Shown: positions 12,612 through 17,514 of the stretch, in pieces | How positions within the stretch are numbered: the stretch's first letter is position 1 | How the letters are laid out: every line of letters starts with the position of its first letter | Assembly (NCBI GenBank): GCA_019247695.1 | Contig: JAFBAP010000094.1 | Coordinates: 1-55,848 of the forward strand | Length of the DNA stretch: 55,848 bases | Direction: 5' to 3' | Source: Verrucomicrobiota bacterium | GTDB taxonomy: Bacteria; Verrucomicrobiota; Verrucomicrobiia; Chthoniobacterales; JAFAMB01 | Program-made: the position numbers and the translations under genes | The notes under the pieces: model-generated | What the model saw: the letters and a program-made list of their open reading frames with translations, nothing else | What the model was told of the DNA's origin: nothing | Databases searched by the model: none

Positions 12612-13511
12612 TCAAGCCCTTGGGTGCGCCTGATCGTAGGCCGCCTTCAACCGGGCCGCCGTGACGTGGGTGTAAATCTGGGTGGTCGAAAGGTTAGCGT
12701 GCCCGAGTAAAGACTGGACGCTGCGAAGGTCTGCGCCGTTGTCGAGCAGGTGCGTCGCAAAACTGTGACGCAACTTGTGGGGAGAAATTTTCAACGGGAT
12801 GCCCGTTTCCGCCAGGTATTTCTTCAGCAACAACCAGACCGAACGCGCCGAGATCCGTTTGCGAAGCTTACTGATGAACAGCGGCCCGGTGTGAACGCTG
12901 GCCGCCTGACGGTATTTCTGGATGGCGGTGAGGGCGGCCTGGCCGACCGGCACGATGCGTTCCTTCCTGCCTTTACCAAAAACCCGGACCGATTCGGTGT
13001 AGAGGTCAACGTCCGCCACGTCGAGCGCCACCAGTTCGCTCAGACGCAGCCCGCTGCTGTAGAACAGTTCAAGAATCGCCGCGTCGCGGGTTGCCGCCCA
13101 GGGCGGCGCCTGGTTTTTCCGTTCGGCGGCCGTAGGTTTGGCCAGCAGGTTGTCCACCTGTTTGACGGAAAGGATCACCGGCAATTTCTTCTCCATCTTC
13201 GGCAGTTGCACCTGGTTGAGCGGGTTCTCAGTAAACCCTGCCCGTTCACGCAGGTACCGGTAAAAGCTGCGGAGCGCCGCAAACGTCAGCCGGACGTAGG
13301 AGCGCGCCATGTCTTCCTGCATGCAATTCAGCAGGAAAGCACGAAAATGGGCCGGGGTGGCCGTGTGCCAGGAGACTTCATCGCCGGCGAACTGCTTAAA
13401 GCGGTTCAAGGCATGGCGGTAGGCCGTGATGGTACGGGGGGAGGCATTCTTTTCGACCTCAAGGTGCTGCAGGTAGCGGTCAAGCAAGCGATCCTTTTTT
13501 TGGTGAGCCAT
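12612..13511 (-). CDS. Tyrosine recombinase, XerC/XerD type
   Basis: Site-specific recombinase that normally resolves chromosome dimers at dif. The core-binding domain occupies residues 1-95 and the catalytic domain the rest. All catalytic residues are visible: Arg156 (SGLRLSEL), Lys180 (GKGRKER), His245 and Arg248 (HKLRHSFATHLL), His271 (LLGHANLSTTQIY) and Tyr280. Its 299 residues are the housekeeping Xer length, and the C-terminal helix after the Tyr is present. Next to pepF and a structural gene, with no phage or integron genes, so a chromosomal Xer rather than an integrase. XerC versus XerD cannot be told from one copy. Confidence 0.93.
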   Translation of the reverse strand: MAHQKKDRLLDRYLQHLEVEKNASPRTITAYRHALNRFKQFAGDEVSWHTATPAHFRAFLLNCMQEDMARSYVRLTFAALRSFYRYLRERAGFTENPLNQVQLPKMEKKLPVILSVKQVDNLLAKPTAAERKNQAPPWAATRDAAILELFYSSGLRLSELVALDVADVDLYTESVRVFGKGRKERIVPVGQAALTAIQKYRQAASVHTGPLFISKLRKRISARSVWLLLKKYLAETGIPLKISPHKLRHSFATHLLDNGADLRSVQSLLGHANLSTTQIYTHVTAARLKAAYDQAHPRA

Positions 13512-13597: not shown

Positions 13598-15562
13598 TTA
13601 CTTCGCGCCCATCGGGTTGGTCAGGTGCGCCGGCTGCACGGTTGCGCCCACGTCGCCCTGGCGCTGGGTCGTGCGGCGAAACGAGAGGATCGCCGTCCGG
13701 GCTTCAACGTTGTCCGGTGAAATCGCGATGATCGGGATCTCGAATTCCTGGTCCGGAAACTTGAAGTGGTACCGGAAGGTGCCGTCAGGGTTAAGCTGGA
13801 CGGGTTGGCCGGCAATGAAGACCTTGGCGCGCGGATCCGTGCCGCCGTAAAAGATGACTTCGGCGTTCACGTGCATGAAGAAACCGCGCTCGCCGTACGG
13901 CTGTTCGCCCCAGCTGGCGCCTATGCCGCTGAACAAGCTCGACTCAGACCAGAGTTCCGACCAGCTCGAGAAACTGGATTCCAGGCCGCTCCAGAGGGCC
14001 TGGCTTTCCGAACCGAACGCACCCGAACTCAGGGTTTCGGAGCTCAACGACAAGAATTCCGAACCGCCGCCCAGCAGGAGGGCCTTTTCCCAGGACAGCA
14101 AAGATTCTGAACCCAGCGAACTCAACAGCTCCAGGCTGGAAAAGATTTCGCCGAAACTCGCCAGCGCGCCGCTGCTCTCGACGCCGCCGAGGCTTTGAAG
14201 CACTTCCTGTTGCCAACTCGAGAGCGACTCGCTGCTCACGCCGAGAGAAGACAAGATTTCACTGCTCAGACCCAGCGAGGACAAAGTCTCGCTGGTGAGG
14301 CCAAACGAGGATAACACCTCACGGCTCAACCCCAGCGAGGATAGTGATTCACTGCTCAGGCCGAGAGAAGAGAGCGATTCACTCGCCAAGCCGAAGGAAG
14401 AAAGCTGGGCGCTCGAAGTCTCCAGGCCGAAGCTGCTGACCCCCGCGCTCGAGGTTTCCAGGCCGAAGCTGCTCACTTCCGCACTGGAGGTCTCCGCGCC
14501 GAAACTGCTCACTTCCGCGCTGGAGGTCTCCGCGCCGAAACTGGTTACTCCCGCGCTGGAGGTTTGTGCGCCGAAGCTGGTCACCTCGGCACCGGAGGTT
14601 TGTGCGCCGAAGCTGGTCACCTCGGCACTGGAGGTTTGTGCGCCGAAACTGGTCACCTCGGCACTGGAGGTCTGTGCGCCGAAACTGCTTACCCCAGCGC
14701 TGGAGAGCTCGGTGGCAACGGCGGCTTTCAGGAAATGGCTGAACAGGCTGGTCTCACCGGGCGCGAGCATCTCGGCCAGCCGCCCGCGCGCCAGCAATTC
14801 GCTGGCCGCCCCCGAGTCGAGCTTGTTTTCAAGTTCGCGCCGGATGTACGCGGTGATTTCGCTTGAGCTTAGGACGCCTGAACTCAAAGAGAAAAGCCGC
14901 TCGAGCAGGTCTTTACCCAAGAGCGCTTCGAGGATTTTGACCTGACCGGTATGCCGTTCGGAAGAACCGCCGCCGGCCTTCAAGGCGGCGCGCTCGAGAT
15001 CTCCCAACGCCTTGATCAACGGTTCGCCGGAAACGCGGGCGGCCTCGATCACGTCCAGCAGCAAATTGAAGCTGAGGTGAAAGGGGACCGTGGCGAATTC
15101 AGAGTTCCAATCCGAGCTGAGCGATTCAGGAGGCGTTCTCGCCGGCCCGGCTCCGGCCACCTCATGCCACGTACCCGCCTGGTCGCGATAGCCGAAAACG
15201 ACCCGGTACGACGCATCGGCCCGCTGCACGGGGATGTACCAGTTGCGTGCCAACTCGTTGATATCGATCGTCGTCTCAAGGTTGCCGTCGCAAAAAACCT
15301 GCAACACCAGGTGACGGTTAGCCGGAAACTGCGCGTAATCGAAATCCCAATAAGTAAACAGCCAATGCGGATCCCGGGCGATCAAATACATCTGGTCATA
15401 CCGCGCGGGAAGTTCGCCGAGGTTCTCGAACTCCGGACGGGTAGCAGGGTCAGTCGCCGGAACGTATTGGCTCGGCTCCTCGGACCTGGCGTATGCCAAC
15501 ACCGGGTCTGAAGCTACTCGGAAGTCTTTCGGGGTGTTGGTTGTTTGTTCGCTCATAGTCAT
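13598..15562 (-). CDS. DUF4912 protein with long Ser-rich tandem repeat
   Basis: Three parts are visible. Residues about 45-160 form the DUF4912 domain (RDPHWLFTYWDFD, WYIPVQRADASYRVVFGYRD). Residues about 285-445 hold nine 12-residue repeats of the form SSAEVTSFGAQT, then five 10-residue repeats of the form ESLSSLGLSS, then a degenerate Ser/Leu/Gly-rich stretch. The last about 85 residues form a beta-rich domain (NAEVIFYGGTDPRAKVFI, FEIPIIAISPD) typical of the C-terminus of these proteins. DUF4912 proteins occur near glycan-metabolism genes in other bacteria, but none is here. ATG 15562 or 15556 is the start; TTTATAATA just before it looks like a -10 box, hinting at a leaderless transcript. 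Function unknown. Confidence 0.8.
   Translation of the reverse strand: MTMSEQTTNTPKDFRVASDPVLAYARSEEPSQYVPATDPATRPEFENLGELPARYDQMYLIARDPHWLFTYWDFDYAQFPANRHLVLQVFCDGNLETTIDINELARNWYIPVQRADASYRVVFGYRDQAGTWHEVAGAGPARTPPESLSSDWNSEFATVPFHLSFNLLLDVIEAARVSGEPLIKALGDLERAALKAGGGSSERHTGQVKILEALLGKDLLERLFSLSSGVLSSSEITAYIRRELENKLDSGAASELLARGRLAEMLAPGETSLFSHFLKAAVATELSSAGVSSFGAQTSSAEVTSFGAQTSSAEVTSFGAQTSGAEVTSFGAQTSSAGVTSFGAETSSAEVSSFGAETSSAEVSSFGLETSSAGVSSFGLETSSAQLSSFGLASESLSSLGLSSESLSSLGLSREVLSSFGLTSETLSSLGLSSEILSSLGVSSESLSSWQQEVLQSLGGVESSGALASFGEIFSSLELLSSLGSESLLSWEKALLLGGGSEFLSLSSETLSSGAFGSESQALWSGLESSFSSWSELWSESSLFSGIGASWGEQPYGERGFFMHVNAEVIFYGGTDPRAKVFIAGQPVQLNPDGTFRYHFKFPDQEFEIPIIAISPDNVEARTAILSFRRTTQRQGDVGATVQPAHLTNPMGAK
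14232..14705 (-). repeat. In-frame 36-bp and 30-bp tandem repeats
   Basis: Nine 36-bp units (14382-14705) encode 12-residue repeats; five 30-bp units (14232-14381) encode 10-residue repeats. Adjacent units are nearly identical, and a few substitutions are shared by neighbours (Ala-Gln in the first four, then Ala-Glu, then Leu-Glu), the pattern expected from stepwise tandem duplication. Confidence 0.9.
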
Positions 15563-15652
15563 TATTATAAAGCGCGCCGGGGGCCTCGCACCCGCAAGAG
15601 TGCGGGCATTCCGGATTTTTGCAAAAGAAAATTTTCTCAACCCTAGACGGCT

Positions 15653-16510
15653 CTAAGGGCTCTCGCCGGGCAGGCGGTAAATCCCGCACTGGCCCAACGC
15701 CTCCATCAACGATGAGTCCTTGCGGATGAGACCGGCCAAATACGCGTTCCGAAGGGGGAGGGCCGGCGCGCGTCCGATGTTTTCCGGATTTTCAAGTCGC
15801 GAGAAGATGGCCGAGGCGATGCGTGCGCGGGGCACAACCTTCTCGCCGAACCCGAGCGGTTGGTTGCTGGACCAGAAACGAACCATTTCCACCCCCTGGC
15901 TGGTCTCTCGCCCGAGGTAAATGACCGAATGGCCGTGTTCGGCGCGTCCGACGGCGGCCGTCCAGAAGATCTTCATGAAATCACCGGGACGGGCAAGGTC
16001 GAACGAGCTAAAATTTCTGCCCAGCCTGAGTTCCTGGAACAGGCAGGCCGTACCGGGCCCGTTGGCATTCCAACGTCCCCAGACGCCGACCCCGTCCGGT
16101 TGGCCGCGGATCAGGAGGGCGTCGATCAACGCCGGGTTTGAGTCCAGCGCTCGACGGTTAAGAAATTGGAGCGCTTTAAGGAAAACGAGGTAAGTCGCGC
16201 CGGAACAATAACTGGGCCTCGCCAGCTCGGGCAGCACCATCAACCCGTTCCGGGGCTGAACGGCCGACTGCAAGCGCCGGGTCGTCTCGGAGGAAGCGGA
16301 GTAGCCGCCGGCATGCGGCATCGTGCCGAGCACGGAAAGAATGACTTCATTCGGGTCCTGGCGCGACAACGCAAATTGTGCCTGTACGGGCAGCGCCGCG
16401 ACGGTCCAGAATGCGAGGAGGAGAAATCGAATCAGGTTCTTCAAACGCTGAAGATGATCAATGACCGCACGCCGATAATCAATTATTATTGACCACGGAC
16501 CATTGATCAT
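15653..16510 (-). CDS. Predicted secreted NlpC/P60-like hydrolase
   Basis: A hydrophobic segment (residues 27-44, RFLLLAFWTVAALPVQAQ) reads as a signal peptide after a 20-residue cytoplasmic stretch. The mature part has a papain-like layout: Cys102 at a helix start (SYCSGATYLVFL), ARPGDFMKIFW, and His194 in EHGHSVIYLGRE. This order of Cys, Gly-Asp and His-x-x-x-Tyr-Leu-Gly is that of NlpC/P60 and CHAP peptidoglycan hydrolases, but overall similarity is loose and the third catalytic residue is not identified. It is divergent from lexA; its ATG is only 18 bp from the LexA operator, so SOS control is plausible. An alternative is a structural homologue with another substrate. Confidence 0.55.
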   Translation of the reverse strand: MINGPWSIIIDYRRAVIDHLQRLKNLIRFLLLAFWTVAALPVQAQFALSRQDPNEVILSVLGTMPHAGGYSASSETTRRLQSAVQPRNGLMVLPELARPSYCSGATYLVFLKALQFLNRRALDSNPALIDALLIRGQPDGVGVWGRWNANGPGTACLFQELRLGRNFSSFDLARPGDFMKIFWTAAVGRAEHGHSVIYLGRETSQGVEMVRFWSSNQPLGFGEKVVPRARIASAIFSRLENPENIGRAPALPLRNAYLAGLIRKDSSLMEALGQCGIYRLPGESP

Positions 16511-16527
16511 TAGTTATTGATCAGTAG

Positions 16528-16541
16528 TGTTCGCCGGAACA
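16528..16541. promoter_or_regulatory. LexA operator (SOS box), Verrucomicrobia type
   Basis: TGTTCGCCGGAACA is a perfect match to TGTTC-N4-GAACA, the LexA-binding motif reported for Verrucomicrobia. It lies 9 bp before the lexA ATG and 18 bp before the divergent NlpC-like ATG. This indicates autoregulation of lexA and possibly joint control of both genes. Confidence 0.88.
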
Positions 16542-16549
16542 CAGATGAC

Positions 16550-17152
16550 ATGCTTACGCAAAGGCAGCAGGAAGTACTCACTTTCATAGAAAAACAGCAG
16601 CGCGACACCGGTCTCCCGCCCACGACCCGTGAGATTCAGGCCCATTTCGGCTTTCACAGCCAGACGGCCGCGATGAACCACCTGCGGGCGCTGGAAAAAA
16701 AGGGCGCGATTCACAAGTCCCCGGGGAAAGCCCGGGCCGCCGTGGTGCCGCAACCGGAGCGGGAGCCCTGGGAACGCCGTATTCCGTTCCTGGGTACGAT
16801 TCCCGCCGGACCGACCGTGGAAGCAGAGGAGGAAACGGATCAGGCGCTCGAACTCGACCTGCGCCTTTTCGGCCAGGGATCACCGGCGGGCGTGTTCGCC
16901 TTGCGTGTTCGGGGCGACTCCATGATCAACGCCCAGATCGCCGATGGCGACCTGGTCATTGTCCAGAAAAGGCAGCCCCGGGAAGGGGACATCGTTGCGG
17001 CCCTGATTGACGGCGAGGTGACGCTGAAGCGTTATGTGATCGTTGACCGCAAGCCCCGCCTCGTAGCCGAAAACCCGCGGTATCGCGACCTGGTTCCGGC
17101 CGCCGATCTCCAGATTCAGGGCGTCATGATCGGCCTGATCCGGCGGGCGTAG
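16550..17152 (+). CDS. lexA: LexA repressor
   Basis: SOS repressor that self-cleaves when RecA filaments form. Residues 1-65 are the winged HTH (TQRQQEVLTFIEKQQ, PPTTREIQAHFGF, AAMNHLRALEKKG). The S24 domain follows, with cleavage site Ala86-Gly87 (TIPAGP), Ser124 (RGDSM) and Lys160 (VTLKRY). It is 200 residues. The frame is open further upstream, but that would place the operator inside the coding sequence, so ATG 16550 is chosen. The recognition helix region is consistent with a non-canonical operator. A repeat cassette starts within 10 bp of the stop. Confidence 0.95.
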   Translation: MLTQRQQEVLTFIEKQQRDTGLPPTTREIQAHFGFHSQTAAMNHLRALEKKGAIHKSPGKARAAVVPQPEREPWERRIPFLGTIPAGPTVEAEEETDQALELDLRLFGQGSPAGVFALRVRGDSMINAQIADGDLVIVQKRQPREGDIVAALIDGEVTLKRYVIVDRKPRLVAENPRYRDLVPAADLQIQGVMIGLIRRA

Positions 17153-17308: not shown

Positions 17309-17462
17309 GTTCGGCGTTCGGCGTTCGGCGTTCGGCGTTCGGCGTTCGGCGTTCGGCGTTCGGCGTTCGGAGTTCGGAGTTCGGAGTTCGGAGTTCGGAG
17401 TTCGGAGTTCGGAGTTCGGAGTTCGGAGTTCGGAGTTCGGAGTTCGGAGTTCGGAGTTCGGA
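17309..17462. repeat. 22-unit perfect heptamer array
   Basis: Eight exact GTTCGGC units (17309-17364) followed by fourteen exact GTTCGGA units (17365-17462), then GCGGC. Because 7 is not a multiple of 3, each frame reads a 7-residue peptide repeat and no stop arises. Long apparent ORFs over it are artefacts. It is a candidate variable-number locus. Confidence 0.95.
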
Positions 17463-17514
17463 GCGGCATCCTGGGGAATGGCTGCGAGTGTCAACCTTAG
17501 AGTTGCCGCCAGGT

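Follow-up and report, generated by a model that had tools for sequence, protein, structure and literature searches.

The question raised by this locus is whether a LexA operator lying between lexA and a divergently transcribed gene for a secreted, hydrolase-like protein serves both genes or lexA only. An earlier note had read the site as an operator common to the two genes and had proposed that a peptidoglycan hydrolase is thereby placed under SOS control. The window, here the whole stretch of 55,848 nucleotides that was analysed, was examined together with related genomes.

The LexA operator and the tentative lexA promoter

The features on the lexA side are as follows.

16528 to 16541, no strand assigned: predicted LexA operator TGTTCGCCGGAACA, lexA autoregulatory, based on the perfect palindrome, genome-wide enrichment and family-wide position
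16550 to 17152, plus strand: lexA, 200 aa, with TIGR00498 above its cut-off and matches to PF01726 and PF00717
16503 to 16530, plus strand: tentative lexA promoter, read from the sequence, with TTGATC (16503 to 16508), a 16-base spacer and TAGTGT (16525 to 16530), the last overlapping the operator

LexA is identified by a TIGR00498 match of 174 bits, for which the cut-off is 111. Upstream of the gene, TGTTCGCCGGAACA is a perfect TGTTC-N4-GAACA palindrome and the sole perfect copy in the window, and it is separated from the lexA ATG at 16550 by 8 bp (9 bp in the earlier note). Such palindromes occur 12 times in the 5.19-Mb genome, compared to twice for a control consisting of the same pattern read backwards, and 94 times against 16 in the 11 genomes of the family taken together, indicating that they are present in excess of chance. 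At the control density, about 4e-5 perfect sites would be expected per 109 bp, and relatives in the family have a box at the same position ahead of lexA. Of the 12 sites in the genome, some (L001, L004) fall within coding regions, where they probably arose by chance, which could be said to favor a fortuitous, functionless palindrome here as well; given the genome-wide counts and the conservation, that reading is hardly credible and was discarded. We therefore treat 16528 to 16541 as a predicted but genuine LexA site at the lexA promoter.

Another perfect palindrome of the genome is located at imuA-imuB, gene calls that both fall below the curated cut-offs (ImuA model, E 3.5e-7; IMS domain, E 7.9e-5). 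Translesion genes of the imuA-imuB type are classic LexA targets. At recA, no convincing box was found, the best candidate having two mismatches. The verrucomicrobial LexA motif of Erill et al. (2016, Front Mol Biosci 3:33), to which other papers refer, is reportedly TGTTC-N4-GAACA, present at lexA, which is autoregulated, and at error-prone polymerase genes. The same motif is seen here at lexA and imuA-imuB without essential difference, in a family of uncultured Chthoniobacterales (Verrucomicrobiota), the order in which its relatives place this genome, and the operator is thus a clean case of an already known one.

Three further perfect palindromes of the genome were recorded. One, TGTTCAGATGAACA (L010:1449-1462, contig C113), was considered as a second link to the wall, as it precedes by about 190 bp an ORF that encodes a YkuD L,D-transpeptidase domain; no long ORF starts directly at the site. 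The other two (L008:133-146 on contig C102 and L074:36-49 on contig C132) lie in similar surrounding sequence near contig ends, and perhaps belong to a repeated element carrying a LexA-like box.

The position of the box relative to lexA is fixed: wherever a family genome includes the sequence upstream of lexA, 2-8 bp separate the end of the box from the lexA ATG. The box directly follows a TAG in genera g1, g2 and g3, suggesting that TAGTGT may be the -10 element of lexA, with TTGATC 16 bases upstream; a sigma-70-like consensus scan did not report this pair. In other families of the order, boxes are present upstream of lexA in several cases, some with one mismatch. In family f12 (L052, L058, L059, L066), the palindrome before lexA is ACTGGAC-N4-GTCCAGT or close to it, replacing TGTTC-N4-GAACA, and the LexA motif may have changed in these genomes. 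On the other side of the gene, between lexA and der, 17309 to 17463 hold a tandem array of 22 copies of a 7-base unit, GTTCGGA or GTTCGGC.

The divergent gene and its product

15653 to 16444, minus strand: predicted hydrolase-like Cys-His protein, papain-like and secreted, beginning at TTG 16444 with signal peptide MKNLIRFLLLAFWTVAALPVQA; based on the conserved start, C79 and H171, the structure and hhalign

The distance between the box and this gene depends on which start codon is used. The earlier note gave 18 bp, relying on the ATG at 16510. This codon is in frame in the window, and a gene starting there would have the box 17 bp away and overlapping its leader. In G001, a genome of the same genus with 87% identity at the protein level, the frame is interrupted by a stop codon shortly before the TTG, by a few codons, that matches window positions 16442 to 16444, and that TTG is the sole ATG, GTG or TTG remaining before the signal peptide. 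The protein read from TTG 16444 opens with MKNLIRFLLLAFWTVAALPVQA, a clean signal peptide, ahead of which the ATG would add about 22 residues. The longer ORF therefore probably does not mark the true gene start, and a start at 16510, judged very unlikely, was rejected; since TTG 16444 is the conserved start, the box lies 83 bp from the gene. Scanning the minus strand at the box for a sigma-70-like promoter by consensus gave none, so that the proposed overlap of the site with a promoter of the hydrolase is unsupported. The AT-rich, repeat-like spacer ATTGATCATTAGTTATTGATCA occurs once in the window, and the genome has no second copy of the intergenic region, which rules out a dispersed repeat.

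The protein itself had been described as NlpC/P60-like. No notable sequence match was obtained in Pfam, NCBIfam or PDB, and none of 32 family members matched PF00877 or related Pfam families, while a PF00877 profile search of the genome gave a match on contig C84 only; a direct NlpC/P60 assignment thus failed. The structure was predicted with high confidence (mean pLDDT 91). Foldseek searches of PDB and viral models gave no match at E 0.001 or better; the sub-threshold neighbors were repeatedly NlpC/P60, CHAP, C51 and staphopain/cathepsin folds. When compared by hhalign with the NlpC/P60 protein on contig C84, the PGD..H..IYLG region aligned with E 4.6e-5 (for a single comparison) and a probability of 69%. 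The 32-row alignment has a near-invariant C79 (YCSGATYL) and H171 (GHSVI(F/Y)LG), numbered in A1, as well as the family-specific blocks WGRWNANGPG and WSSN.

With NlpC/P60 and CHAP proteins (PF00877 and relatives), the family shares a conserved Cys with Ser-Gly directly after it, a block of the form PGD...H..I(Y/F)LG and, below threshold, papain-like structural neighbors; it differs from them in the missing Pfam match across its 32 members and in its own WGRWNANGPG and WSSN blocks. Because there is no Pfam or NCBIfam family match, the earlier name holds as a resemblance at the level of the fold and not as a family assignment. We conclude that the product, of about 260 aa, is probably a secreted Cys-His protein with a papain-like fold resembling NlpC/P60 or CHAP, for which peptidoglycan would be a plausible substrate. 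Members of this protein family occur in most of the sampled genomes of Chthoniobacterales as well as in another family of the class, and, lacking a Pfam model, the group is worth annotating. One paralogue (L115, G001 contig C413) has lost both conserved residues (YSSGATYL and EHSLSMIY in place of the Cys and His motifs) and may for that reason be an inactive copy.

Spacing and synteny of the lexA-hydrolase pair

Two more genes downstream of the hydrolase belong to the conserved neighborhood.

13598 to 15640, minus strand: DUF4912 protein (PF16258), a syntenic neighbor adjoining the hydrolase across the family; listed ORF, whose true start is probably further in
12612 to 13511, minus strand: xerC-like tyrosine recombinase, named by inspection of the translation, a syntenic neighbor in the same conserved block

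The divergent lexA-hydrolase pair is present in all nine assessable family genomes (G000-G004 and G007-G010); G005, broken on both sides, and G006, with the two genes on different contigs, fall outside this count. Conservation of the pair in relatives, the check that the earlier note had called for, is thus found throughout the assessable family. The order xerC-DUF4912-hydrolase is kept together with it. In G046, a genome of family f5, xerC-DUF4912 lies near lexA and the hydrolase is absent there. Since the xerC-DUF4912 block is conserved and stays near lexA even in that genome, shared synteny is sufficient to account for the pairing. The DUF4912 protein of the window has a long internal region rich in Ser, Gly and Phe, with tandem repeats at 14226 to 14705, which is missing or shorter in relatives.

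Spacing between box and hydrolase, measured from the start codon preceding each signal peptide, is not conserved in the same way. It is 83 bp in the window and about 82 bp in G001, so 82-83 bp in genus g1, compared to 151-955 bp in the other genera (151 in G002, 169 in G008, 184 in G010, 287 in G007, 315 in G004, 762 in G003 and 955 in G009). The gap in G003 contains a gene of 213 aa that overlaps the hydrolase start, and that in G009 contains what appear by eye to be remnants of two-component genes. An alignment of three genomes of genus g4 has one conserved block at the hydrolase and another at the lexA box, with unconserved DNA of variable length between them, the pattern that two separate promoters would be expected to leave.

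Copies of the hydrolase gene away from lexA carry no such box. Among 70 homologue loci of Chthoniobacterales outside the family, no box with one mismatch or less was found within 600 bp upstream, as far as the sequence reaches, with about one expected by chance across these loci, and no close box was found for 10 homologues from another family of the class. Of two paralogues in G000, one has no box within 600 bp and the other has only a two-mismatch site at 296 bp. At the distant loci L116 and L125, lexA is 1.4 kb off on the same strand, in L116 with intervening genes. A tree places all lexA-adjacent hydrolase copies in one family clade, plus one paralogue line. In family f5, a nucleotidyltransferase gene faces the lexA box rather than the hydrolase. 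At L054 (G051), an imuA-like ORF, named by inspection, runs divergently from lexA and starts about 140 bp from it.

Control of the two genes and comparison with known systems

These observations are best explained, and we think probably so, by autoregulation of lexA beside a syntenic hydrolase gene with little or no LexA control. LexA dimers would bind 16528 to 16541, covering the promoter of lexA at its -10/start region, and would keep lexA repressed until LexA self-cleavage is stimulated by RecA upon DNA damage. The hydrolase would be kept near lexA by joint inheritance of the xerC-DUF4912-hydrolase-lexA block and would probably be transcribed from a promoter of its own, nearer its start. 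The comparisons do not support placing the hydrolase under SOS control: the box keeps close to lexA (2-8 bp) but not to the hydrolase (82-955 bp), the start codon on which the idea relied is probably wrong, homologues away from lexA are boxless, and in genus g4 a separate conserved block lies upstream of the hydrolase, apart from the box. The operator proposed for both genes thus probably serves lexA and not its neighbor. The case illustrates how a divergent neighbor can mimic an SOS gene until the position of the operator is traced across relatives.

In genus g1, shared control is possible given the short spacing in G000 and G001 and an intergenic region that is 86% identical between these two species. 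Here bound LexA would also lower transcription of the hydrolase, which, once SOS-induced, would remodel the wall or delay division, in keeping with the conserved pair and with the precedent of SOS division inhibitors and the wall hydrolase ChiZ next to lexA (PMC6851548; PMC3989709). We regard this as unlikely, considering that the minus strand has no sigma-70-like promoter at the box, that the 82-83 bp spacing is not retained in other genera and that homologues and paralogues are without a close box. Still less likely is the broader proposal that the lexA-divergent protein of this family is SOS-induced, at least in g1, and works at the wall to check division after DNA damage, which would make it a verrucomicrobial counterpart of ChiZ, YneA and SosA built on an unrelated protein.

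The idea was a reasonable one, since in Gram-positive bacteria SOS genes for cell-wall and division functions are known to lie divergent from lexA, and ChiZ (Rv2719c) of M. tuberculosis is reported to be a cell wall hydrolase induced by DNA damage (PMC6851548; PMC3989709). By analogy, an SOS-controlled wall protein beside lexA has precedent as a kind. Like YneA of B. subtilis, SosA of S. aureus, DivS of C. glutamicum and ChiZ, the protein encoded here would be exported, wall-directed and located beside lexA. Those proteins are small, contain a membrane segment and in most cases carry LysM, whereas this one is secreted and papain-like; the box here, moreover, tracks lexA only. Were SOS induction true, it would constitute a wall-directed output of DNA damage in Verrucomicrobiota, comparable with the inhibitors linked to lexA in Gram-positive bacteria.
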